Part shown: positions 945 to 13,980 of the stretch, piece by piece | How positions within the stretch are numbered: the stretch's first letter is position 1 | Layout of the letters: every line of letters begins with the position of its first letter | Assembly (NCBI GenBank): GCA_017537905.1 | Contig: JAFYJX010000078.1 | Location: 1-27,249 of the forward strand | Source of the DNA: Clostridiales bacterium | GTDB taxonomy: Bacteria > Bacillota_A > Clostridia > Saccharofermentanales > Saccharofermentanaceae | Reading direction: 5' to 3' | DNA length: 27,249 bases | Notes under the pieces: model-generated | Told to the model about the DNA's origin: nothing | The model's input: the letters and a program-made list of their open reading frames with translations, nothing else | The model's database searches: none | Position numbers and translations under genes: made by a program

Positions 945-1658
945 TTAAACGTTCTTATTAACAATTCTGGTCTCAGCTGCGCCTGTCTCGATGTCGATGT
1001 AGCGTACGAAAAGAGAAACCTTGTTGTCTTCATTAAGGCTTGTCCATACTTCGTTTGTGAAAGTATCGATATCACCCTTGAGCTCTACCTTCTCAGGCTC
1101 GCCTTCGAATGAAGGAAGCGGGCTGCCGTCACCCATGTATGTATGGATGAATCTGCCGATGCCTGCCTTGGGATTTGTGTATGTGAATGTGTGGCGCTCA
1201 CATGAATCCGGATCGCCGTCATCGCTCTTAAGGATGGACATAGCGAAGTTATATGTGCCGTTCTCAACGTGCATGATTCCGGAGATTCTGGGAGTATAGT
1301 TCGGAGCGTCGTCTTCGAACTCTCTGCCTCTTAAGGACTGCTCGAAAGTCATCTGCTTGTCCATGAGTTCATAGATAGTGTCTGTCTGGTCACCGTTTGT
1401 AACGATAGTCTTGTTGCCAAGAACTCTTACTGGTGAATAAATGATGAGGTGCGGATCAGTAAGAAGCGAAGGATCAAAAGCCTCTGTCTTGATTCCGTCT
1501 TCTGTAGCCGTGAATACTCTGTTTCTAGAGTTAACGCTTCTTCCCATGATGAAGTAAGCAGTAACCGCATACTTACCGTCAGCGGACTTACCGATTACGA
1601 TTCCTCTTCCGGGATAAGCATTCTCTTTTAAGATCTTGCCCAAGTTCTGTGTGATCAT
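945..1658 (-). CDS. purO: IMP cyclohydrolase, PurO-type
   Basis: This 237-residue protein should close the ring of FAICAR to make IMP, the last step of de novo purine synthesis. It resembles the PurO family first known from archaea and is unrelated to the PurH cyclohydrolase domain. Family-like segments are YPGRGIVIGKS near residue 16, the GRSVNSRNR segment, a DPHLIIYSPVRV stretch, VTNGDQTDTI and NYTPRISGI. The ATG at 1658 is preceded by a strong GGAGG. It sits 28 bases after purN and 28 bases before the stand-alone AICAR formyltransferase, consistent with one transcript. Bacterial members often carry only a generic IMP cyclohydrolase label. The assignment comes from recalled motifs and gene context. 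Confidence 0.85.
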   Translation of the reverse strand: MITQNLGKILKENAYPGRGIVIGKSADGKYAVTAYFIMGRSVNSRNRVFTATEDGIKTEAFDPSLLTDPHLIIYSPVRVLGNKTIVTNGDQTDTIYELMDKQMTFEQSLRGREFEDDAPNYTPRISGIMHVENGTYNFAMSILKSDDGDPDSCERHTFTYTNPKAGIGRFIHTYMGDGSPLPSFEGEPEKVELKGDIDTFTNEVWTSLNEDNKVSLFVRYIDIETGAAETRIVNKNV

Positions 1659-1686: not shown

Positions 1687-2307
1687 TCATTTTATATAGC
1701 AGATGTTGTTCTTTATCTCGACTCTGCCGTCAGCAATAAGCCTTATTGCCTGAGGCAGGATCTTCCACTCGCAGTTCTCCATTATCCTTCTCTGCAAAGT
1801 CTCGGGAGTATCGTCAGGCAGGACGTCTACGGCCTTCTGCAGAAGGATCGGTCCCTCATCGTAATTCTCATTTACGAAATGGACTGTGGCACCTGACACC
1901 TTAACGCCCTTTGCAAGAGCAGCCTGATGAGGTCTTATTCCGTACATGCCTGCACCGCAGAACGAAGGAATAAGAGCCGGATGGATATTGATAATGCGGT
2001 TGGAATACTTAGCAACGACCTTAGGTCCCATCAAAGAAAGATAGCCGGCAAGAACGATAAGTTCCGCACCGGACTCATCTACTGCCTTAACGACTGCATC
2101 GTCCCAGGCTTCAATGGAATCAAAGTCTTTCTTGGAAACTACAACAGACTTAATGCCGTTATTTGCGGCTCTCTCGAGCGCATAGGCACCTTTTGAAGAT
2201 GACAGTACAAGTACGATCTCGATATCCTTTAAGATACCATCTTTAGTATTATCGATAATTGCCTGAAGGTTAGTTCCGCCTCCCGACACAAATACTGCAA
2301 TCTTCAT
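1687..2307 (-). CDS. purN: Phosphoribosylglycinamide formyltransferase (GART)
   Basis: This 206-residue protein is a folate-dependent GAR transformylase that forms FGAR from GAR and 10-formyl-THF. The N-terminal loop VSGGGTNLQAI (residues 7-17) binds the GAR phosphate. The catalytic set is visible as N107 and H109 in INIHPALIPSF and D150 in NYDEGPILL. Length is normal for the family. The ATG at 2307 has AGGAG eight bases upstream. An inverted-repeat element fills most of the roughly 100-base gap to purF, and purO follows 28 bases downstream. Nothing in the protein looks broken. Confidence 0.95.
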   Translation of the reverse strand: MKIAVFVSGGGTNLQAIIDNTKDGILKDIEIVLVLSSSKGAYALERAANNGIKSVVVSKKDFDSIEAWDDAVVKAVDESGAELIVLAGYLSLMGPKVVAKYSNRIINIHPALIPSFCGAGMYGIRPHQAALAKGVKVSGATVHFVNENYDEGPILLQKAVDVLPDDTPETLQRRIMENCEWKILPQAIRLIADGRVEIKNNICYIK

Positions 2308-2338: not shown

Positions 2339-2416
2339 ACAACTGATATTGATTTCGCGAGCGATTCCGCACAAGCGAAGCACGGAGGACCTAGCGAGCG
2401 GAACAATATCAGTTGT
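2339..2416. repeat. Palindromic intergenic element between purF and purN
   Basis: Perfect 13-base arms at 2339-2351 and 2404-2416 (ACAACTGATATTG and its complement) enclose a GC-rich 52-base core. The core has nested pairing (TTCCGC with GCGGAA) and two GCGAGCG copies at 2357-2363 and 2394-2400. The right arm contains the purF stop codon. No T-run follows on the minus strand, so it is not a standard intrinsic terminator. It looks like a REP-like or small mobile palindrome, or an RNA-processing hairpin in the pur transcript. Confidence 0.7.
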
Positions 2417-3815
2417 ACTTTACCTTGTGGATGCTCTCTTCATCATCCTCAGGCTTGCCTGCGATGAAGTTGCCGTCGAAGCATGCGGAGCATACGTCGC
2501 AATCGATTGTGTTAAGAGATGCTCTCAATGACTCGAGGCTGATATAAGCGAGTGAATCAGCACCGATCATGTCGCGGATCTCTTCAATTGTCTTTGTGCT
2601 TGCAGGAAGCTCAGTCTCAGACGAAGCGTTAACGCCATAGCAGCAGCCGAACTTTACCGGCGGAGAAGCGAGTCTTACGTGAACTTCTGAAGCGCCGTTC
2701 TCTCTTAAGAATGAGATGATGTGCTTTGTTGTAGTACCTCTTACGAGTGAGTCGTCAACAATAGCGATCCTCTTGCCCTTGATGGCTGTCTTAAGAGCTG
2801 CGAACTTCATTCTTACAGCAAGTTCTCTCTGCTGCTGAGTGCTCTTGATGAATGTTCTTCCTACATATCTGTTCTTCAAAAGACCTGCACCGTACTGGAT
2901 TCCCATGCCTGCTGCGAAGCCTTCTGCTGCTGCATTACCGGAGTCAGGAGCGCCGATTACGAGATCAACATCTGCAGGGCTCTCTTTCGCGAGGGCCATA
3001 CCTACTCTGTATCTGGAATCGAAGATGGACATCTTATCGATAACAGAGTCAGGTCTTGCGACATAAACATATTCGAAAACGCAGACCTTGGCGTCCTTCT
3101 TTTCGGCAGCTTCGTCATAGAGAATGGAGCTCATGCCGTCCTTGGAGATAGTGATGATCTCGCCGGGCAGGAAGTCTCTTACGATCTCGCATCCGATAGC
3201 GTCGAGTGCGCAGGATTCTGAAGAGATATAGTACTTGTCGCCGAGCTTTCCGAGGATCAAAGGTCTGATTCCGTAAGGGTCTCTTACGCCGATGAGCTTG
3301 TCTTCGGTCATGAAGATCATTGAGTAAACGCCGTGGATCTCCTTCATTGTCTCGAGGATAGCGTGCTCGCAGTCCTCTGTTCTGATCCTGTTTCTCGAGA
3401 AGAGCGAAAGGATGATCTCTGAATCTGTATTTGTCTGGAAGATAGCGCCCTGGTCCTTAAGACCGTCTCTGATCTTGGTTGCGTTCATGATGACGGAATC
3501 AGAAGTAAGAGCGATGTTGCCTACTCTGGACTTAATGGAGATAGGCTGGATAGCATCTGTACCGTTCTCTCTGGGAGAACCGCCTCTTGTATGTCCGATC
3601 GCGCATGTTCCTGCGAGTGCAGATAAAGTTACATCATCGAAAACATCGGTAACAAGACCTGAAGCCTTATGTACCAAAAAAGAACCGTCATCGTTAACTG
3701 CGATACCGCAGGATTCCTGTCCTCTGTGCTGTAAGGAGAAAATACCGTAGTAAGTATCTCTCGTTACGTCCTGTTTGCTTCCCTTGATGTCATAACATCC
3801 GAAAACTCCGCTCAT
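2409..3815 (-). CDS. purF: PurF-family amidophosphoribosyltransferase with degenerate glutaminase site
   Basis: PurF makes 5-phosphoribosylamine from PRPP and ammonia taken from glutamine. The 468-residue protein has an N-terminal Ntn glutaminase domain and a C-terminal PRTase domain. The PRTase half looks intact: the PRPP loop IAIVDDSLVRGTTTK is at 350-364, and Bacillus-type Fe-S ligands are present (C245, C391 or C392, C442, C445). The glutaminase half is odd. It starts MSGVFG where the family has a Cys nucleophile before GVFG, and the AHNGN oxyanion segment reads TSDSV (104-108). R77 and D131 of the normal site remain. An in-frame TAA at 3819-3821 rules out a hidden propeptide. It may use free ammonia or another glutaminase, or be a paralogue beside a normal PurF elsewhere. 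Confidence 0.88.
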   Translation of the reverse strand: MSGVFGCYDIKGSKQDVTRDTYYGIFSLQHRGQESCGIAVNDDGSFLVHKASGLVTDVFDDVTLSALAGTCAIGHTRGGSPRENGTDAIQPISIKSRVGNIALTSDSVIMNATKIRDGLKDQGAIFQTNTDSEIILSLFSRNRIRTEDCEHAILETMKEIHGVYSMIFMTEDKLIGVRDPYGIRPLILGKLGDKYYISSESCALDAIGCEIVRDFLPGEIITISKDGMSSILYDEAAEKKDAKVCVFEYVYVARPDSVIDKMSIFDSRYRVGMALAKESPADVDLVIGAPDSGNAAAEGFAAGMGIQYGAGLLKNRYVGRTFIKSTQQQRELAVRMKFAALKTAIKGKRIAIVDDSLVRGTTTKHIISFLRENGASEVHVRLASPPVKFGCCYGVNASSETELPASTKTIEEIRDMIGADSLAYISLESLRASLNTIDCDVCSACFDGNFIAGKPEDDEESIHKVKYN

Positions 3816-3874: not shown

Positions 3875-4381
3875 TTAATTCATTTCAGCGATCTTCTGCT
3901 GAAGTCTGGCATCCCTCTCCTCGACCGATGAAGCGAGGCTGGCCTTGTAATCCTTGATCTTCTGCATAAGTTCAGGATCAGATAAAGCGAGCATCTGGCA
4001 TGCGAGGATAGCAGCATTAGAGCCGCCGTCGATAGCTACTGTTGCTACGGGAATACCTGTAGGCATCTGAACTGTTGCATAAAGAGCATCAACACCTGCA
4101 AGAGCGCCGCCCTTGCAAGGAACACCGATTACGGGGAGTGCTGTATTGGCAGCCAGAACGCCGCCCAGATGTGCAGCAAGACCTGCTGCAGCGATAATTA
4201 CCTTGAAACCTTCTGCTTCTGCGCCTCTGGCAAGAGACATAGCCTTATCAGGTGTTCTGTGAGCTGATGCAACCGTTGCTTTAAAACCGACACCGAACTT
4301 ATTTAGCATCTTGAAGCAGCCTTCCATTACGGGGAAATCGGAATCGGAACCCATTACTACCAAAACTTTGCAATCAGCCAT
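3875..4381 (-). CDS. purE: N5-carboxyaminoimidazole ribonucleotide mutase (class I PurE)
   Basis: PurE converts N5-CAIR to CAIR in purine synthesis. The 168-residue protein carries the GSDSD phosphate-binding loop (11-15), the catalytic His in SAHRTP (H41), AGLAAHLGGV and the closing segment VQMPTGIPVATVAIDGG, all pointing to class I. I chose the ATG at 4381, with an AGG eight bases upstream, over an in-frame GTG at 4390 that would overlap that site. The gene follows the CapA-like lipoprotein by 18 bases and precedes purF by 59, so it probably shares the transcript. Class I enzymes normally use N5-CAIR made by PurK; no purK is seen in the window. Confidence 0.93.
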   Translation of the reverse strand: MADCKVLVVMGSDSDFPVMEGCFKMLNKFGVGFKATVASAHRTPDKAMSLARGAEAEGFKVIIAAAGLAAHLGGVLAANTALPVIGVPCKGGALAGVDALYATVQMPTGIPVATVAIDGGSNAAILACQMLALSDPELMQKIKDYKASLASSVEERDARLQQKIAEMN

Positions 4382-4399
4382 AATCTGCACCTGCCTTAA

Positions 4400-5542
4400 T
4401 TATTCATCGCCCTGCGCCCAGTTTAAGCGCTGCATGACCCTGAAATAATCTTCAGACTCCCATGCGTAGGGCTTGGGACAGAAGTCATTTCCGGGTCTGG
4501 TTGATGTTTGAGAATAGGGATAAACCCTCAGTCTATAGTCTACGCATTTTGAACCGTCTCCGTCCATAATAAAATCGCATTGAATTATTACAGAATCGGG
4601 GTCTGTTAATGAGTAATTTCCACCAAAACAAAAGTTCGAGAGTGAATAGAAGATGTAATGACCGTTATACTTCTCTATCGGCTGGAGGCGGTGCGGGTGT
4701 GTTCCGACAACGATATCGACGCCGTAATCGATGAGTTCGTGGGCTATCTTCTTCTGCCTGGAGGTAGGTTCATAGACGCCCTCGGCACCGAAATGGCAGG
4801 ATGCGATGATTATCGCTGCACCTTCTTTTTTAAGATCATCTATAAGTCCGTAGACTTTGGAAGCATTAGTATCATTGCCCAAACCGACCATGCCGATCTT
4901 GATGCCCTTGCTCGTTGTAAACATCGAAGTGTATTGGTCGTCACTCCAGAGGATCCCCTTGTCATCCAGGTTCTTTCTGGTCTCCTTAAGGCCCTCTTCC
5001 CAGAAATCCATCGTATGGTTATTGGCGATATTAACAGCCTCAATGCCAGCCTTGGTAAGCATCTCCAGGTTCTCCGGCTTCATGCGGAAGATATACTGGT
5101 TATTCTTGTGGCTCGTTGTGTCAGTAACGGGATTCTCGAGATTTATCAGAGTCATGTCATCAGACTTGAACATCTCGGCGCAGTTTTTGAAGCAATAATC
5201 CATATTGCCGTTGATCTTGTCGTCAAAAGCCTTTTTCGAGGCCCTGTAATCCTGTGTCAGAGTGCAGTCACCCGTAAAACTCACGGTAACGGTGCGCTCT
5301 CCGGGAGCCAGCGACGGCGTGGGAGTAGCAGTCGGCGTAGGCGTCAAAGACGGCGTTGTCTCAGTGGAAATGGTCTCAAGGACCATTGTGGTGGCAGCTG
5401 ACTGATCGATATTGGTATTAACGGTATCAAGTACAGATGCTTCAGGATTGCTGTTGCAGGCTGCCATATTAACTGACATAACGGCAATCAGCCCCATAGT
5501 CAGAAGCGTCTTCAAAGTCTTGCAATCACGGGCGGTCTTCAC
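4400..5542 (-). CDS. CapA-like (PGA_cap) metallophosphatase-fold lipoprotein
   Basis: This 380-residue protein belongs to the CapA / poly-gamma-glutamate synthesis family, which has a calcineurin-like metallophosphatase fold. The signal peptide ends in lipobox MAAC with C29, so it should be lipid-anchored on the outer face of the membrane. A Thr/Pro-rich linker spans about 63-80. The catalytic-fold motifs follow: FTGDCTL (89-95), LINLENPV, NIANNHTMDF, SCHFG and VVGTHPHRLQP. The start is GTG at 5542. Known relatives take part in capsule or polyglutamate export, but most are uncharacterised and no capB, capC or capD is nearby. It is the first gene of the purE-purF run, 18 bases from purE. Confidence 0.87.
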   Translation of the reverse strand: MKTARDCKTLKTLLTMGLIAVMSVNMAACNSNPEASVLDTVNTNIDQSAATTMVLETISTETTPSLTPTPTATPTPSLAPGERTVTVSFTGDCTLTQDYRASKKAFDDKINGNMDYCFKNCAEMFKSDDMTLINLENPVTDTTSHKNNQYIFRMKPENLEMLTKAGIEAVNIANNHTMDFWEEGLKETRKNLDDKGILWSDDQYTSMFTTSKGIKIGMVGLGNDTNASKVYGLIDDLKKEGAAIIIASCHFGAEGVYEPTSRQKKIAHELIDYGVDIVVGTHPHRLQPIEKYNGHYIFYSLSNFCFGGNYSLTDPDSVIIQCDFIMDGDGSKCVDYRLRVYPYSQTSTRPGNDFCPKPYAWESEDYFRVMQRLNWAQGDE

Positions 5543-5643: not shown

Positions 5644-7755
5644 TTAGAAGAGCAAAAATACGGTTCCAAACGGCTTAATGCCGATCCTCCTTGTTCCGCC
5701 CAGGATACCGCCCAGAATGTACTGTTCCGAGACAGGGTGAATATCGTTTGTGTCATTTGAATCCCTGCATTCATAGCTCCCGTAATGCTCGGAGACATCA
5801 ACAAATACGGGCTTGTCTGACCTGTTCATCACGAAGACCACCGCCCTGCTGCCCGTCGCCTCCTTGCCAAAGGCGTCACGGCCTTCTTTTAAGTATCTGA
5901 CAAAGGCAAATGTGCCGCCCTCAGCCAAAAGGGTCTTATAGTAACCTGTCTTAAGGCATTGGTTCTCAGTCCTGATCCTTGCGATGCGCTTAAAGTAAGC
6001 CAGAGCCTCCTGCTGCTTTAAGTCAGTCCTGTTCCATGGATATGTTCTTCTGTTGAAAGGATCTTTATATCCTTCCATAAGGATCTCATCGCCATAGTAG
6101 ATGCATGAGGCACCGATATAGCATGTCTGGAAAGCAAAAGCCATCTTGGACAGTGCCGATACGACATCGTAATACTGAGCATCCACCTTAAAGCCCCTCT
6201 GGATATCACGGTCGTCGGTATCTTCCGGGCGCGATAGCATGGTCATGATCCTCGGAACATCATGTGAGGATACGAGATTCATCATTGAATAATATGCTTC
6301 CTTGGGATAACGCTCGCGGAAACCTTCGAATCTGGTGTTTGCTATATCTGCATCGATATAACCCGCGAGGAAATCCAGAAGGATATGCCTGAATGTATAA
6401 CCCATGACAGAATCGTGGGTGTTTCCGAGCATGAAGTCTCTGTAATTGCCGTAGCTGCATTTATTCGATGCATCTTCCCAGACTTCACCGATAACTGCGC
6501 CCGAACCGCCCGTCTTCTCCTTGACGGTCGTCCTCATCTGTCTGATGAAGCTGTCAGGAAGTTCATCTGAAACATCAAGTCTGAAGCCTGAAGCTCCCCT
6601 GGATATCCATGTGTCGACAACACCGTCTTTGCCGAAGATGAAGTTCCTGTACGCCAGATCGTCCTCATTGATATTAGGCAGATCGGGAAATCCCCACCAG
6701 GAATCGTATCCGACTGAGCCGTCGGCGTTTCTGTAGAAGTTATACCAGGAGCGGAACCTGCTCTCTTCGCCTTCGTTAAATGCTTTGTAGGCTCCTACAC
6801 CCTCATAACGGTCAAACTTATTAAAATATCTCGAATCGGCTCCTGTGTGGCTGAACACGCCGTCCAGAATGATCTTTATGCCTCTTTCCTCACAGGCGCT
6901 CTGAAGGCTCATAAAAGCCGCCGTACCGCCAAGGATAGGATCGACATTAAGGTAATCAGCCGTATCGTATCTGTGCGAAGATCTGGCCTCGAATATCGGA
7001 TTCAGATAAAGGACGTTGATCCCGAGTTCTTTTAAGTAATCGAGTTTCTCCTCGATGCCCTTAAGGCTTCCGCCATAGAAATCGCAGGCGAGATAACCCG
7101 TCTCGGGCTTGCCCTTTGTATCGACATCCTCATTCCAGTCTTCGTGATAGATCCTTTCTGACCTGTCATCAGTGTGGATAAGCTTCTGGTAATCAAAAGC
7201 GGAATCCCTGGCAAATCTGTCCGGGAAAATCTGGTACATCATGGCACCTTTTAAGAATTCAGGTGTCTTGAAGTCCTTGTTATACACGGTTATCTGGAAA
7301 GCATAAGGATATTTCTCTTCGTCCACGCCAACTCTCGGAGGGTCCTTATAAAGCGTTCCCTCACCGTCTTTGGTGTCCATGCCTGCCCCGTAGTATAACG
7401 TGAGCATAGGATTATCTTCTTTTAATCCTTCCGGCAGATCCGTAAGATCGCCCGGGCAGTTGAATCTGAACCAGTAGAACAATATCGAAGGCTCGGAAGG
7501 AAGCATGAGGTTTACATGATATCTTCCCAAACCCGATACCGAATACATCGGTTCTTCGTGATAAGTGAAATTATAAAGTCCGTAAGTATAGCAGAACGTT
7601 ACGTTTGAAGCTTCTTTATAGGTGTCGAAAAAGATGTCGACATAAGAAGCACAAGGCCTTGCGCCAAACGGCTGCCTGTACTCAGGAAGGCGCGATGCAT
7701 GAATGCACCGCGCCTTGGTAAACACTTTTGAATCAGTCTGTGTCTTATCAGACAT
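5644..7755 (-). CDS. GH13 alpha-glucan hydrolase, neopullulanase/cyclomaltodextrinase-like
   Basis: This 703-residue GH13 enzyme should hydrolyse alpha-1,4/1,6 glucans. Residues 1-165 form a CBM34-like beta domain. The catalytic barrel follows, with MMYQIFPDRF (172-181), region V LNPIFEA (251-257), region I DGVFSHTG (D298, H303), the nucleophile D394 in GFRLDVSDE, the acid/base E424 in GEVWED and SHD at 497-499. Region I has Ser where many relatives have Asn. There is no signal peptide, so it acts in the cytoplasm, probably on glycogen or imported maltodextrins. Its ATG overlaps the glgA stop by one base (TGATG), suggesting translational coupling. It is the last gene before the operon terminator. 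Exact specificity cannot be told from sequence. Confidence 0.9.
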   Translation of the reverse strand: MSDKTQTDSKVFTKARCIHASRLPEYRQPFGARPCASYVDIFFDTYKEASNVTFCYTYGLYNFTYHEEPMYSVSGLGRYHVNLMLPSEPSILFYWFRFNCPGDLTDLPEGLKEDNPMLTLYYGAGMDTKDGEGTLYKDPPRVGVDEEKYPYAFQITVYNKDFKTPEFLKGAMMYQIFPDRFARDSAFDYQKLIHTDDRSERIYHEDWNEDVDTKGKPETGYLACDFYGGSLKGIEEKLDYLKELGINVLYLNPIFEARSSHRYDTADYLNVDPILGGTAAFMSLQSACEERGIKIILDGVFSHTGADSRYFNKFDRYEGVGAYKAFNEGEESRFRSWYNFYRNADGSVGYDSWWGFPDLPNINEDDLAYRNFIFGKDGVVDTWISRGASGFRLDVSDELPDSFIRQMRTTVKEKTGGSGAVIGEVWEDASNKCSYGNYRDFMLGNTHDSVMGYTFRHILLDFLAGYIDADIANTRFEGFRERYPKEAYYSMMNLVSSHDVPRIMTMLSRPEDTDDRDIQRGFKVDAQYYDVVSALSKMAFAFQTCYIGASCIYYGDEILMEGYKDPFNRRTYPWNRTDLKQQEALAYFKRIARIRTENQCLKTGYYKTLLAEGGTFAFVRYLKEGRDAFGKEATGSRAVVFVMNRSDKPVFVDVSEHYGSYECRDSNDTNDIHPVSEQYILGGILGGTRRIGIKPFGTVFLLF

Positions 7756-9476
7756 CAGTCTTTCTTCTCCTTCTCTTCAGGCTTCTTCTCTTCGGCCTTT
7801 ACCGGAGCTTTCTTGGCTTCCGTTTTCTTTGCCGGAGCAGCCTTCTTCGCTGCGGGCTTTTTGGCGGGAGCTTTCTTCTCCGTTTCCTTCTTGGCAGGAG
7901 CCTTCTTAGCTGCAGGCTTCTTCTCTGCTGCCTTCTTCTCGGCAGGTTTTTCGGCCTTTACCGGAGCTTCCTTTTTCGCTTCCTTGGCAGGAGCGGGTTC
8001 AGGCTTGACTTCGATTCTGGGAATGCCTGTGATCAGGGAGTAGAGGCCGGCATATTCGCCTGCACTCTTCTTCCAGGAATAGTCGCCCTTCATGCCGGCT
8101 TCGATGATCTTATCCCAAACATCAGGGTGATGACGGTAAATGTCAGCCGCATACTTGGTTACGAATAAGAACTCGTGAGCGTTGATGTTGGCAAATGAGA
8201 AGCCGTTGCCTTCGCCTGTATATTCGTTATAAGGAGTAACCGTATCCTTAAGTCCGCCCGTCTCTCTTACGACAGGAACAGTACCATAAGCCATTGAGCA
8301 GAGCTGTGACAGGCCGCAGGGTTCGAAGATACTCGGCATGAGGAAAATGTCAGCTGCAGCATAGATAGTATGAGCAAGGCCGCTGTCGAAATCGATGCAG
8401 GCACACATCTTGCCCTGGTTGCGGTTGGCGATATCTACGAGAGCTCTCTCATAGTAAGGATCGCCCGTACCGAGGATTACGATCTGCATTCCGTCGTAGA
8501 GCATTTCCTCAAGAACATAGAGCAGGAGATCCAATCCCTTCTGGTCAACGAGACGTGAGATCATTGCGCACAAAGGAGCACCGGGGTTAACCTCGAGGTT
8601 AAGCTGTTCCTGCAGTGACTTCTTGCAGGCTGCCTTACCTTCCTTGTAGTTCTTGATCGAATACTTCATCGGGATCTTGTCATCCTTTGAAGGATCGTAC
8701 TCGAGATCGTTCATACCGTTGATGATGCCTGATACCTTGTAAGCATATTTCTGCAGGGTGTAATTGAGACCTTCGCCATAGTAGTCAGTCATGATCTCAT
8801 AAGCATATGTCGGAGATACCGTAGTAACGGAATTACTGAAAACGATACCGGCCTTCATGAAGTTGATGGCCTTATCCTTGATGCAGAAATCCTCTCTTAA
8901 GTAATCGTCAGGGAGATCTAACATCTCTCTTACGACGTCAATGGAATGAACGCCCTGATACTTAAGATTGTGGATCGTATAAACGGTCTGGACATTGGTG
9001 TGGTAGCCGTTCTTCTTGAAGTGGCAATCAAGGAGCATAGGCATCATGCCCGTCTGCCAGTCGTTGCAGTGGAGAACATTAGGTTCGAAGTTCATGAAAT
9101 CGCCCATGAAATCCAGAACCGCTCTCTGATAGAAGCAATAACGCTCGATGTCGAAAACATAATCAACATAGATCTGGTCGAAGTTGAAATAGTATTCGTT
9201 GTCGATGAAGTAGAAGACTACGCCGTTTACTTCAAGTGAGAACAGACCCGCATAGAGCGATCTCCATCCCATATGAACCATCTTCCATCCGAGGAACTGG
9301 AGTTTGTCGCTGTATTTAACCTTGATCTTCTTGTAGAGCGGAATAATAACACGTGCATCAACGCCCTGCTTATTAAGCTCTACAGGCAGGCTGCCTACAA
9401 CGTCAGCGAGTCCTCCGACTTTGACGAACGGACTGCACTCGGACGATGCGAACAATACTTTGATGTTTTTTTCCAT
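7755..9476 (-). CDS. glgA: Glycogen synthase with basic Lys/Ala/Pro C-terminal tail
   Basis: GlgA adds glucose from ADP-glucose to the growing alpha-1,4 glucan (family GT5). The ADP-glucose motif KVGGLADV (19-26) and the C-terminal FEPCGLSQL (385-393) and ETGGLKDTV segments are present, so the core of about 490 residues is complete. It then carries an unusual tail at 491-573 built of PAKK, AAKK and EKK repeats, like the C-terminus of histone H1. A similar tail is found on GlgB in this operon. The gene starts two bases after the glgD stop and overlaps the GH13 start. The tail is in frame and ends at a normal stop, so it is a real extension and not a frameshift product. Confidence 0.95.
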   Translation of the reverse strand: MEKNIKVLFASSECSPFVKVGGLADVVGSLPVELNKQGVDARVIIPLYKKIKVKYSDKLQFLGWKMVHMGWRSLYAGLFSLEVNGVVFYFIDNEYYFNFDQIYVDYVFDIERYCFYQRAVLDFMGDFMNFEPNVLHCNDWQTGMMPMLLDCHFKKNGYHTNVQTVYTIHNLKYQGVHSIDVVREMLDLPDDYLREDFCIKDKAINFMKAGIVFSNSVTTVSPTYAYEIMTDYYGEGLNYTLQKYAYKVSGIINGMNDLEYDPSKDDKIPMKYSIKNYKEGKAACKKSLQEQLNLEVNPGAPLCAMISRLVDQKGLDLLLYVLEEMLYDGMQIVILGTGDPYYERALVDIANRNQGKMCACIDFDSGLAHTIYAAADIFLMPSIFEPCGLSQLCSMAYGTVPVVRETGGLKDTVTPYNEYTGEGNGFSFANINAHEFLFVTKYAADIYRHHPDVWDKIIEAGMKGDYSWKKSAGEYAGLYSLITGIPRIEVKPEPAPAKEAKKEAPVKAEKPAEKKAAEKKPAAKKAPAKKETEKKAPAKKPAAKKAAPAKKTEAKKAPVKAEEKKPEEKEKKD

Positions 9477-9478
9477 AA

Positions 9479-10588
9479 TCAGATACCTGCTCCTTTTCCT
9501 ATTACGATAGGATAGTCGGGATGTCCGACAAGTCTTACGCCGGGTCTTACGAAAGCGTTCTTGTCCAAGATAACGTTCTCGAGATGGCAGTTCTCAGAAA
9601 TGTGAACGTCCTGCATGATAACGCAGTTCTTGATCGTTGTGTTCTTTGCGATCGTAACACTTCTGAATATGACTGAGCTCTCAACCTTACCATAGATGCG
9701 GCAGCCGTCGGATACGATAGAATCGCTCATCTCGGCGTTGTCGAAGTAAAGTGTCGGAGCTTCATCCTTGACTTTAGTATAGATGGGCTTACCGCTCCAG
9801 AACAGGTCATTTCGGACCGAATCTGTAAGAAGTGACATTGAAGCGTTGAAGTAGCTCTGTACGCTGTTGATCCTCAGAACAACGCCGGAATATTCAAAGC
9901 CGTGAACCTTGAACTCATCGAACATCTTAACGATCGAGTGGATTCCGAAGTGGCTCTGGCCGTGTGCCATCTGGCGTGCGAGGATATCGATCAGGAGGTC
10001 TCTTCTAAGGCAGAGGATACCAAGTGAGCACTTGGGAGATGTTGCCTTTGCGGGATTGTAAAGCATGTCTCTTACAAAGCCGTCATCATCGATATCGAGG
10101 ATATAGGAAGGATTGCCGAACTTAGTGCCGTCACGGTTATACATAACGGAAATATCAGCACCTGATTCCTCGTGGGATTTTATAAAAGAATCAAATGTCG
10201 TGTTGAGGATAACGTTAGCGCCTGCAACGATGACATAAGGGGTCCTCGACTGTCTTAAGAAGTCGATAACGCCTGTGAGCTCTTCGTCAGAGCTGATGTT
10301 TGTAGCCTCAGAGTTAACGTAAGGCGGCAGGATATGAAGACCGTCATTCTTTCTGTCCAAAGACCATGCGCCGCCTGTTCCGGTGTGGTCCATCAGTGAC
10401 TTGTACTTGTTGTAAGTAAGAAGTCCGACGTTCTTAACGCCTGAGTTGACCATGTTGGATAACATGAAGTCAATGATTCTGTATCTTCCGCCGAAAGGCA
10501 TAGCGGAAAGCGCGCGAGGATTGGAGAGCTCGCCCAGAGATATCTTTTTGTTGTCGGCCAGGATCAGGCCCATCGCATTATTAAACAT
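9479..10588 (-). CDS. glgD: Glucose-1-phosphate adenylyltransferase, GlgD subunit
   Basis: GlgD is the second, often regulatory subunit of ADP-glucose pyrophosphorylase in Firmicutes. The 369-residue protein starts MFNNAMGLILADNKKISLGE, where the GGxGxRL nucleotide loop of catalytic subunits is missing, and keeps FGGRYRIIDFMLSNMVNSG. The C-terminal half has the hexapeptide-type repeats expected of a left-handed beta helix (VIFRSVTIAKNTTIKNCVI). An AAAGGAG lies 10 bases before the ATG. It is 20 bases after glgC and 2 bases before glgA. GlgD alone is usually weakly active or inactive and raises GlgC activity in the heterotetramer; that is family knowledge and not visible here. Confidence 0.94.
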   Translation of the reverse strand: MFNNAMGLILADNKKISLGELSNPRALSAMPFGGRYRIIDFMLSNMVNSGVKNVGLLTYNKYKSLMDHTGTGGAWSLDRKNDGLHILPPYVNSEATNISSDEELTGVIDFLRQSRTPYVIVAGANVILNTTFDSFIKSHEESGADISVMYNRDGTKFGNPSYILDIDDDGFVRDMLYNPAKATSPKCSLGILCLRRDLLIDILARQMAHGQSHFGIHSIVKMFDEFKVHGFEYSGVVLRINSVQSYFNASMSLLTDSVRNDLFWSGKPIYTKVKDEAPTLYFDNAEMSDSIVSDGCRIYGKVESSVIFRSVTIAKNTTIKNCVIMQDVHISENCHLENVILDKNAFVRPGVRLVGHPDYPIVIGKGAGI

Positions 10589-10608
10589 ATGTCTTAATCT
10601 CCTTTACC

Positions 10609-11868
10609 TCATGCTCTGAATTTTGACTCGATGATCTTGCAATCTTCGGGCACTTCCAGATCAGAATCGATCATGCTGTTAGCAGGTATTACCGCACCTT
10701 CCTTGATCGTCAGGCCGCGCTCGAAAACGCAGATTCCTTCAGAACAGATCTTATGGTTGGTGTAAGGTCCTTCGCCCTCGACGAAGCTTCCTGCCTGAAC
10801 ATTCTTGCCGATCACGGTTCCCTGATCGATAACGCAGCGCTCGATGTGTGCGCCTTCCTTGACGACAACACCCGGCATGAGAACGCAGTCCTTAACGATA
10901 GCGCCCTTTTCCACGATTACGGATTCTGAGAGAACTGAATGCTCTACATCACCGAAGATACGGCATCCGTCTGTAAGAGCCGAATTCTTAACCTTTGCGC
11001 CTGAACCGATGAAGTGTGAAGGCTTAACAGGGTTTCTGGAGAAGATCTTCCAGGATCTGTCAACGAGGTTGATCTCTTCAGGCTTATCGAGGATATCCAT
11101 GTTTGTTTCCCAGAGGGATGAGATCGTTCCAACATCCTTCCAGTAACCTGAGAATCTGTAAGCTACGAGCTTCTTGCCCTGTCCGAGCAGATTCGGAACG
11201 ATGTTCTTGCCGAAGTCGTTATTGGAATTCGGATTAGCTTCGTCTTCGATAAGAGCCTGTCTTAATACGCTCCATGTGAAGATATAAACACCCATTGAAG
11301 CGAGGTTGCTCTTCGGATTGGCGGGCTTTTCCTCGAATTCTTCAATGACGTCATCTTCTTTTGTATTGAGGATACCGAATCTGGGAGCTTCTTCCCACGG
11401 TACCTCATATACTGCGATCGTAGCGTCAGCGTTCTTTTCGATATGGGCCTTGAGCATTGCCGCATAATCCATCTTGTAGATATGGTCACCCGAGAGAATA
11501 ACTACATATTCAGGATCGTTATCGTCAATAAAACTCATATTCTGGTAGATAGCGTTAGCTGTACCCTTGTACCAGTCAGAGCCTGCATTGCTCTGGAAAG
11601 GCGGAAGGATATACGCACCAGCGTTGTTTCTGTCGAGGTCCCAAGGGTGGCCGTTACCGACATAAGTATTAAGAGCCAGCGGTTGATACTGAGTAAGAAC
11701 GCCTACGATCTCTATTCCTGAGTTTACACAGTTAGAGAGCGGGAAATCGATTATCCTGTAACGGCTTCCAAAGGGAACGGCCGGCTTTGCTACTGTCTTG
11801 GTCAGTACACCAAGTCTGCTTCCCTGTCCTCCTGCGAGTATCATCGCAACGACTTCAGTTCTTGCCAT
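10609..11868 (-). CDS. glgC: Glucose-1-phosphate adenylyltransferase, catalytic subunit
   Basis: GlgC makes ADP-glucose from ATP and glucose-1-phosphate, the committed step of glycogen synthesis. The 419-residue protein has the nucleotidyltransferase loop GGQGSRL (13-19), the [19 protein letters not shown] segment, [10 protein letters not shown] (126-135) with the catalytic Asp, and [12 protein letters not shown] left-handed beta-helix domain follows. GGAGGTAG precedes the ATG by 6 bases. The gene sits between glgB and glgD with short gaps. Length and motifs are normal. Confidence 0.96.
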
Positions 11869-11892
11869 AATGAACTACCTCCGTATATGAGC

Positions 11893-13980
11893 TTATTTTG
11901 TTTTCTTTTTTGTATCAGCCTTCTTGGAAGCTTGTGGCTTTTTGGCTGCGGGCTTCTTTGCAGGCTTTTCTTCTGCTGTCTTTACTGCCTTCTTGGCAAC
12001 TGTTTTCGTTGTCTTCTTAGCAGCGGGCTTAGCAGCAGTCTTCTTTTCGGCAGGCTTTTTAGCAGGCGCCTTGGCGGTCTTCTTTGCCTTCTTCTTTACA
12101 GGATCCTTCACCTTCATGAAGTAGATACCTGCCAAAGGAGGAAGGTTGATCTTGACCTTATAAGGCTTGCCGTTCAAAGGCTCGTCGATTGCTTCAAAGC
12201 AGCCGTTCATATCGGTTGCCGTAGGATATCCGGAACCTCCGTGGCACATATCGTCAGTGTTGAAGACGATCTTGTATGTGCCGAGCTCGTAAACAGGCAT
12301 CTCATAGCCTTCGAGCGGCTGCGGAACCATGTTAAGAGCGACATAGATATCGTTTCTCTTGGGATCCGGACATGATCTCTTGTATACGAAAACATTGTTT
12401 TTGGTGTCGTCTGCAGCGATCCATTCAAAACCTGCCCAGGTGTGGTCATCTTCCCAGAGCTGCGGATTCTCGACATAGAACTTATTGAGTTCGCTGTTGA
12501 AATTCTGGAGCAGACGGTGTGATTCGTAATCGAGCAGGAACCACTCGAGCTGCTCATAGAAACGCCACTCGATGAACTGGCCGAACTCTGCGCCCATGAA
12601 GTTGAGTTTTCCGCCCGGATGGCTGATCTGGTACATCATCATGGTCCTGAGAGAAGCGAACTTTCTCCAGATATCACCGGGCATCTTGTCGATCAGTGAA
12701 TGCTTGCCGTGAACTACTTCATCGTGAGACAGGCTCAGGATATAGTTCTCTGAGAATGCATACATCATCGAGAAGCAGAACTCGTCATGATGCCATGCTC
12801 TGGCATAAGAATCAGTCGAGAAATAATCCAGTGTGTCATGCATCCATCCCATGTTCCACTTATGTGTGAAGCCCAGTCCGCCGTACTCAACGGGATGTGA
12901 TACCTTCGGCCATGCGGTGGACTCTTCTGCGATGAGCATTGCATGAGGATAGTTCTTGCGGATTGTGGAATTCAGTTTCTTGAAGAAATCGATTGCCTCA
13001 AGGTTCTCGTTTCCGCCGAATCTGTTGGGAATATACTGCTGTCTTCCGTAGTCTCTGTAGAGCATTGAAGATACAGCATCGACACGGATACCGTCCAGGT
13101 GATATTCATCGATCCAGTAAACCGCGTTGGATACCAGGAACGATACAACTTCGTTCTTGGAATAATCAAAAACATAAGTGCCCCATTCCCTGTGCTCACC
13201 GATCCTGGGATCTGCATATTCATAACAGGGCGTGCCGTCAAATCTGACGAGGCCTTCCATGTTCTTCGGGAAGTGCGCAGGAACCCAGTCAAGGATAACG
13301 GAGATGCCGTTCTGGTGAAGGACATCTACCATGAACTTGAAATCTGCAGGTGTTCCGAATCTGGAAGTAACCGCATAGTATCCGGTTACCTGGTAGCCCC
13401 AGGAGTCATCGAGCGGATGCTCTAAGATAGGCATGAGCTCTACATGTGTGTAGTGCATCTTCTTGCAGTAGTCAGCCAGATCTATAGCAAGCTCTCTGTA
13501 TGTAAAGAAATTACCGTCCGGATGCCTTCTCCATGAACCAAGATGGATTTCATAGATATTGATCGGCTTAGGTGCCAAAGCATCAGTGCGGTTCTTGCAG
13601 AAATCGTCATCGTTCCAGATATAATCATCAGGATCGTAGATGATAGACGCATTGTTAGGTCTCGTCTCGAAATGTCTGGCAAAGGGATCACCCTTCTCAT
13701 ATATCCTGTTATCAGCGCCGATAACTCTGTACTTATAGCGATCCCACTGTTGTGCATCAGGAACCTTCTGTTCCCAAATGCCCGTCTTCCCGAGCATAAA
13801 CATCTGGCAGTCGTTGGGATCCCAATCGTTGAAATCACCCATAACGCTTACCATGCGTGCATTAGGAGCCCAAACGCGGAATATGAAGCCCTTCCCGTTC
13901 TCATCCTCATAGGGGTGAGCGCCGAGGAACTTATAGCTCATAAAGTTCTCGCCCTTGTTGAATAAATAAGCGGCATCCAT
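11893..13980 (-). CDS. glgB: 1,4-alpha-glucan branching enzyme with basic Lys/Ala/Pro C-terminal tail
   Basis: GlgB makes alpha-1,6 branches in glycogen (GH13). The 695-residue protein has a CBM48-like N-terminal domain (about 20-120), then region I DWVPAHF (231-237), nucleophile D301 in GIRVDAVSSMLY, acid/base E353 in AEESTAW and D420 in LSHDEVVHGK. The C-terminal beta domain ends near 625. From 627 to the stop runs a Lys-rich tail with PAKK, AAKK and TVAKK repeats, like the GlgA tail. I kept the ATG at 13980 (AAGG eight bases before). A second ATG at codon 14, after AAGGGCGAG, is also possible and would match relatives that start near MSYKFLGAHP. It is the first gene of the glycogen operon. 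Confidence 0.95.
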   Translation of the reverse strand: MDAAYLFNKGENFMSYKFLGAHPYEDENGKGFIFRVWAPNARMVSVMGDFNDWDPNDCQMFMLGKTGIWEQKVPDAQQWDRYKYRVIGADNRIYEKGDPFARHFETRPNNASIIYDPDDYIWNDDDFCKNRTDALAPKPINIYEIHLGSWRRHPDGNFFTYRELAIDLADYCKKMHYTHVELMPILEHPLDDSWGYQVTGYYAVTSRFGTPADFKFMVDVLHQNGISVILDWVPAHFPKNMEGLVRFDGTPCYEYADPRIGEHREWGTYVFDYSKNEVVSFLVSNAVYWIDEYHLDGIRVDAVSSMLYRDYGRQQYIPNRFGGNENLEAIDFFKKLNSTIRKNYPHAMLIAEESTAWPKVSHPVEYGGLGFTHKWNMGWMHDTLDYFSTDSYARAWHHDEFCFSMMYAFSENYILSLSHDEVVHGKHSLIDKMPGDIWRKFASLRTMMMYQISHPGGKLNFMGAEFGQFIEWRFYEQLEWFLLDYESHRLLQNFNSELNKFYVENPQLWEDDHTWAGFEWIAADDTKNNVFVYKRSCPDPKRNDIYVALNMVPQPLEGYEMPVYELGTYKIVFNTDDMCHGGSGYPTATDMNGCFEAIDEPLNGKPYKVKINLPPLAGIYFMKVKDPVKKKAKKTAKAPAKKPAEKKTAAKPAAKKTTKTVAKKAVKTAEEKPAKKPAAKKPQASKKADTKKKTK

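Follow-up and report, generated by a model that had tools for sequence, protein, structure and literature searches.

The purF gene of the window and its operon

The window, i.e., the whole stretch of 27,249 nucleotides that was analyzed, carries a purine operon on its minus strand. The features considered below are:

945..1658, minus strand: purO-like IMP cyclohydrolase gene (matched by PurO models with scores below their cut-offs)
1687..2307, minus strand: purN, the operon gene downstream of purF (TIGR00639, 207.9 bits, cut-off 150.1)
2409..3815, minus strand: purF paralogue with a lost glutaminase site, 468 amino acids
2730..2756, minus strand: intact PRPP loop, DDSLVRGTT, spanning residues 354-362, from which the coordinates were derived
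3492..3506, minus strand: TSDSV, residues 104-108, where PurF has the oxyanion segment AHNGN; placed by residue number and confirmed in the sequence
3810..3815, minus strand: ATG AGC, i.e., Met followed by Ser, where Cys would come after Met or a propeptide
3875..4390, minus strand: purE, the operon gene upstream of purF (TIGR01162, 196.7 bits, cut-off 149.6)

The purF product matches the NCBIfam equivalog model TIGR01134 over its full length with 443.9 bits (cut-off 350) and B. subtilis PurF (1ao0) with 391 bits. The common features are the whole-length fold, the phosphoribosyltransferase (PRTase) half with its PRPP loop, the positions of Fe-S Cys residues and the place in a pur operon; the window protein differs in having no catalytic Cys, no propeptide and no oxyanion NG. 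Its N-terminus reads MSGVFG, with Ser where PurF has the catalytic Cys, and N102-G103 (1ao0 chain numbering) are replaced by Asp-Ser in the alignment to the B. subtilis protein. When individual sites were tested, the PRPP loop and conserved PRTase residues were found and the N-terminal catalytic Cys and the oxyanion Asn-Gly were not. An in-frame TAA is located two codons 5′ of the ATG (CTA TAA GCA ATG), which makes a longer, Cys-bearing N-terminus impossible in the purF frame. These observations bear out the earlier note, which had described the Ser-for-Cys replacement, the change of AHNGN to TSDSV, the intact PRTase motifs and Fe-S Cys residues and the upstream stop. The AlphaFold2 model shows a complete PurF fold (mean pLDDT 84.4; best match 1ao0, TM 0.86); residues 311-325 (the KNRYVGR region) are modeled weakly.

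Upstream of purE, a gene is present at 4400-5542 (minus strand) whose counterpart in the related locus L010 matches PGA_cap (CapA-like). A glycogen cluster (an amylase-like gene, glgA, glgD, glgC and glgB; 5644-13980, minus strand) lies ahead of the purine operon. Scanning of the window for RNA families (at the gathering cut-off) and for tRNAs (by ARAGORN) identified none.

Conservation of the Ser-type PurF

Homologues were collected as a set of 121 sequences, consisting of the query and the best 120 of 7973 matches. In this set, 118 sequences begin with MSG and 120 lack NG; thus, both changes are conserved among close relatives. All 121 sequences retain Arg31 and 120 retain Asp131; at position 77, Arg occurs in 89 and Lys in 32. 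The three sequences that do not begin with MSG are P0107, which is cut short, P0121, which is 60% identical and carries both Cys and NG, and P0088. The last one has a Cys start without NG; over its first 50 residues it most resembles normal PurFs and those of the outgroup, over most of the next 150 it is nearest to the Ser-type clade, and its contig is only 1808 bases long. P0088 is a probable chimera.

In an alignment of 54 sequences, D354, D355, S356, V358, R359, G360, T361 and T362 of the PRPP loop are invariant and L357 nearly so. Also invariant are C245, C391, C442 and C445, which we take to be the Fe-S ligands.

Most Ser-type loci belong to genomes of rumen or gut origin, under names such as Saccharofermentans sp., Ruminococcaceae bacterium and Clostridiales bacterium. 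When plasmid records were compared with the window PurF, all 492 matches were below 60% identity, i.e., no close relative was found on plasmids. In each of the 49 clade loci where both flanks are available, purF is flanked by purE and purN. Likewise, purO and a separate AICAR formyltransferase gene are present in the operon of 49/49 clade loci (L001-L039 and L115-L124), a count without L040 and L041, which are two halves from cut contigs. At L010, for example, the counterpart of the window purO-like gene matches PF07826 with 235.4 bits, and the AICAR formyltransferase gene comes next after it.

We compared alignment columns between 54 rows without Cys1 and 49 rows with Cys1 (the sets being defined by Cys1, with P0088 and the divergent PurF-like protein of locus L082 left out). 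NG is present in 0/54 of the former and 49/49 of the latter. The Cys set has 50 conserved columns in the glutaminase half; the Cys1-less set keeps 40 of them and has lost five (C1, V71, N102, G103 and A136). In the PRTase half, 57 of 61 conserved columns persist in 90% or more of the Cys1-less set, and none is lost. Among the 54 Cys1-less rows, position 72 is Arg in 39 and Lys in 15, and D127 is Asp in 53. We take R72 and D127 to be glutamine-binding residues of PurF; that they are mostly kept would count against a plain dead glutaminase domain, which need not retain them.

Selection on the Ser-type purF is purifying. Compared with close orthologues, the window purF has dN/dS values of mostly 0.01-0.07 in both halves, for the 27 of 39 clade loci of equal length that could be compared; the N-half values of L023 and of the distant L033-L035 are 0.10-0.15, and the C-half values of L023, L033, L034 and L035 are unusable due to an indel. 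The ratio of glutaminase-half to PRTase-half divergence in 10 genomes (L021 left out) is 1.20 for the Ser-type copy and 1.25 for the normal copy. The glutaminase half of the Ser-type protein is therefore not decaying faster and is held in a new form.

Origin of the clade

In a tree of 64 PurFs, all 22 Ser-type rows and P0088 are found behind a single branch with 100/100 support, and this clade is nested among operon PurFs of its own order. The outgroup PurFs, which belong to the same order, retain Cys and NG within the purE-purF-purN setting: purN is present in 23/23 outgroup loci and purE in 21/23, the two exceptions beginning at a contig end or sitting on a short contig. The earlier note had named the usual Cys in relatives at this locus as the sign of an assembly error. 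No such relative was found inside the clade; outgroups at the equivalent locus do carry the Cys, which indicates that it was lost in the clade. Some outgroup sequences vary near the glutamine site, with the His that precedes NG replaced by Thr, Ile, Met, Leu or Phe. In 8/49 Cys-bearing rows, Phe or Thr replaces the Tyr that follows the glutamine-loop Arg.

Outgroup operons have no purO match (0/23) and a weak formyltransferase match in 18/23 cases, which may correspond to bifunctional PurH. Since clade operons contain purO and a separate formyltransferase gene, the swap of purH for this pair may be placed on the same stretch of the tree as the glutaminase loss. A PGA_cap-type gene is present 5′ of purE in 49/49 clade loci and 9/23 outgroup loci. 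The normal PurFs L054, L057 and L058 (genomes G013, G014 and G020) form a separate branch, as if regained from elsewhere; the G013 copy (L076) adjoins glmS.

A second, Cys-bearing PurF in relatives

A second PurF with ECG[VI]FG and HNGN was found at another locus in the genomes of 17 out of 20 relatives, and all 34 second copies inspected by sequence (17 from this first set and 17 further ones) carry Cys and HNGN. The earlier suggestion that the window gene is a paralogue retained in the pur operon is thus supported for the relatives. No match to purE, purN or purO was detected near the second PurF in seven regions inspected. In three genomes, it is close to glmS (L076 was inspected; the other two were judged by the contig position of a GlmS-like match).

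We surveyed 188 genomes of the order, calling a match Ser-type at an identity of at least 64% and a genome single-copy at E 1e-60. Ser-type matches, three of them partial, were found in 77 genomes; 68 of these have at least two PurF matches and nine have one, though the second match is not always a normal PurF (there are two Ser-type matches in G113 and fragments in G129 and G099). Some genomes of the order, e.g., G088, G095, G107, G109, G115 and G139, have a normal-type match only. Genome G011 also encodes a further, very different Cys-less PurF-like protein (L082, 391-1797, plus strand), which starts with MGGFFG, contains DDSIVRGTQ and has no HRGQ motif.

Apparent loss of normal PurF from three lineages

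The normal PurF gene is often located between two genes that we take, from a look at their sequences, to be radical-SAM-like and transglutaminase-like; neither matched in an NCBIfam search at 1e-15. In genomes G016, G130 and G092, these two neighbors are adjacent, with gaps of ca. 129, 136 and 70 bases, respectively. A tblastn search between them revealed no PurF remnant, and no normal PurF was found in the three assemblies, which are drafts, so that the gene could sit in unassembled sequence. PurF is present at the equivalent place in relatives of G016 (G010, G011 and G012) and in six relatives of G092 (G089, G100, G101, G116, G122 and G135). For G130, the closest among the sequences compared is G091 (89% in the Ser-type PurF), where PurF adjoins the transglutaminase-like gene. 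G078, G079 and G114 are related to G130 by similarity; their normal PurF is beside neither neighbor gene in the stretch inspected, which shows that the normal gene does move.

The Ser-type copies of G016, G130 and G092 keep KNRY[VI]GR and DDSLVRGTT. They are nearest to different relatives (L119, L117 and L020), and the losses therefore look separate. PurL (in two pieces in G130), PurD and PurB are retained in G092 and G130, and G092, a MAG, also keeps the operon; it is the best case of normal-copy loss. PurL, PurD and PurM gave no matches over the cut-off in G016 (1.7 Mb), whose assembly is probably incomplete. As regards PurM, TIGR00878 scores fall under the 236-bit cut-off in most genomes (G005:C7:103787-104800 scores ca. 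57 bits); out of 10 genomes, only G001 and G108 passed it, and G016 and G137 gave no match.

Among the single-copy genomes, only G016, G130 and G092 are informative. G123 was dropped because of a cut normal PurF at a contig end. In G001, G009 and G090, a neighbor gene is missing too, so the locus lies outside the assembly. G137, whose contig ends at the neighbor gene, and G108, which has no comparable locus, are uninformative.

Proposed function of the Ser-type PurF

Taken together, the operon position, the intact PRTase half, the strong selection and the occurrence as sole PurF in some assemblies are best read as pointing to an ammonia-dependent enzyme. We consider it probable that the Ser-type PurF is an ammonia-dependent phosphoribosylamine synthase. 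As a rule, it would act as an isozyme alongside normal PurF; in a few lineages, no other PurF was found. Its glutaminase half would be dead and its PRTase half working, so that 5-phosphoribosylamine would be made from PRPP and free NH3. Most clade genomes would express this ammonia-using isozyme from the pur operon and encode a glutamine-using PurF elsewhere. Use of free ammonia was one of the options listed in the earlier note, and it is the best-supported mechanism, given the kept PRTase half and the normal copy missing from its usual place in three lineages. A precedent exists in E. coli PurF, where replacement of Cys1 by Ala or Ser is reported to abolish glutamine use and leave ammonia use possible (PMC3261824, citing Mei and Zalkin 1989).

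In one lamb study (PMC7046558), ammonia in the rumen ranged over 5.86-25.99 mg/dL, or about 4-19 mM by our conversion if these figures stand for NH3-N. The same study reports that rumen Saccharofermentans fell with rising urea and ammonia, which counts against ammonia use. The Cys motif of the PurL glutaminase, GICNG, is kept in 7/7 sequences inspected; a pattern search for its His-Glu part in these seven gave nothing clear. As far as tested, then, glutamine has not been dropped pathway-wide.

A bolder version, which we regard as possible though rather doubtful, is that the committed purine step was made independent of glutamine in a bacterial lineage, that the old pocket (Ser1, the oxyanion Asp and the kept Arg and Asp) was rebuilt as a site of ammonium intake or sensing, and that this is the sole PurF of some species.

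Since 68 of the 77 Ser-type genomes have at least two PurF matches, the Ser-type copy usually has a companion on which it could rely. It might, for instance, be a regulatory or structural subunit that forms mixed tetramers with normal PurF and tunes it, e.g., by binding PRPP, nucleotides or glutamine (the last without hydrolyzing it). In favor of this are the tetrameric state of PurF (PMC7056826), the presence of a normal copy in 17 of the 20 genomes and the glutamine-binding Arg and Asp, which are mostly retained. We nevertheless consider such a role unlikely: a regulator has no need of the PRTase catalytic set that is kept here, and in three lineages the Ser-type copy still has its PRTase motifs with no normal copy at its locus. 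The same three genomes fit poorly with a purely regulatory role and with ammonia coming from normal PurF; the earlier note had offered a regulatory paralogue and supply by another glutaminase. In the latter case, the PRTase would be fed through a complex with normal PurF or a separate partner. Glutaminase-competent PurF and GlmS do coexist with it in these genomes; however, there is no separate glutaminase among the named operon neighbors, no normal PurF in the G092, G130 and G016 assemblies and no identified partner, which makes this supply route quite improbable.

Ser acts as a nucleophile in other Ntn hydrolases, and Ser1, which is almost fixed here (MSG in 118/121 sequences, the query and the best 120 of 7973 matches) and would be exposed once Met is removed, might do the same and still hydrolyze glutamine or another amide. 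The oxyanion NG is, however, lost in 120 sequences of that same set, and no detectable glutamine activity was reported for the Cys1-to-Ser variant of the E. coli enzyme (PMC3261824); hydrolysis by Ser1 is very unlikely. An assembly error or pseudogene, to which we give practically no credence, is refuted by the low dN/dS and by the occurrence of the same change in 37 other full-length loci besides the records of AB4001 and YAD3003, which carry no MAG label.

Relation to known systems

A close parallel to the Ser-type PurF is PurF′ of Crenarchaeota, a Cys-less PurF paralogue that occurs beside a normal PurF and near pur genes, and for which ammonia use was proposed and tests were called for (PMC3261824). 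Cys-less PurF with the same ammonia hypothesis is thus already known. The same text describes a PurF paralogue with Ser for the N-terminal Cys in Methanocorpusculum labreanum, Mlab_0150. The window PurF shares the missing N-terminal Cys with PurF′, and the second, Cys-bearing PurF of the archaeal case has its counterpart in the 17 of 20 relatives' genomes. This likeness is one of shared features, the 64-PurF tree containing no archaeal rows. Many archaeal PurF′ proteins have Ala or Val, with two copies close together (PMC3261824), whereas the clade described here is nested among PurFs of same-order Clostridia, has the Ser-type copy in the operon and has apparently lost the normal copy in some members.

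Human CPS1 likewise has Ser for Cys in a glutaminase-like domain that it retains, and it uses free ammonia; it is another enzyme, which makes carbamoyl phosphate, and its glutaminase domain is of the Cys-His-Glu triad type (PMC4655335). Titles and abstract beginnings of the open-access literature, with subscription papers outside the search, yielded no bacterial clade of Cys-less PurF, which is not proof of absence. The new elements are a clade of this kind in bacteria, the place of its gene in the operon, the graded series of outgroups and the lineages that have apparently lost normal PurF.

Ammonia-based phosphoribosylamine synthesis by Cys-less PurF paralogues has been a question since the naming of PurF′ in archaea in 2011. 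The clade makes it tractable, with two records not marked as MAGs (AB4001 and YAD3003), Cys-keeping outgroups that vary near the glutamine site and three lineages seemingly without the normal enzyme. Source annotations call Ser-type proteins "amidophosphoribosyltransferase", and metabolic models built on this plain annotation would assign a glutamine cost that these proteins probably do not have.

The MGGFFG protein (L082, G011:C12) is likewise Cys-less and PurF-like and is present in one of the same genomes. It differs in being 29% identical to the query, scoring 189.5 bits with TIGR01134 (below the cut-off) and having no HRGQ or HxR motifs, and represents a separate kind.
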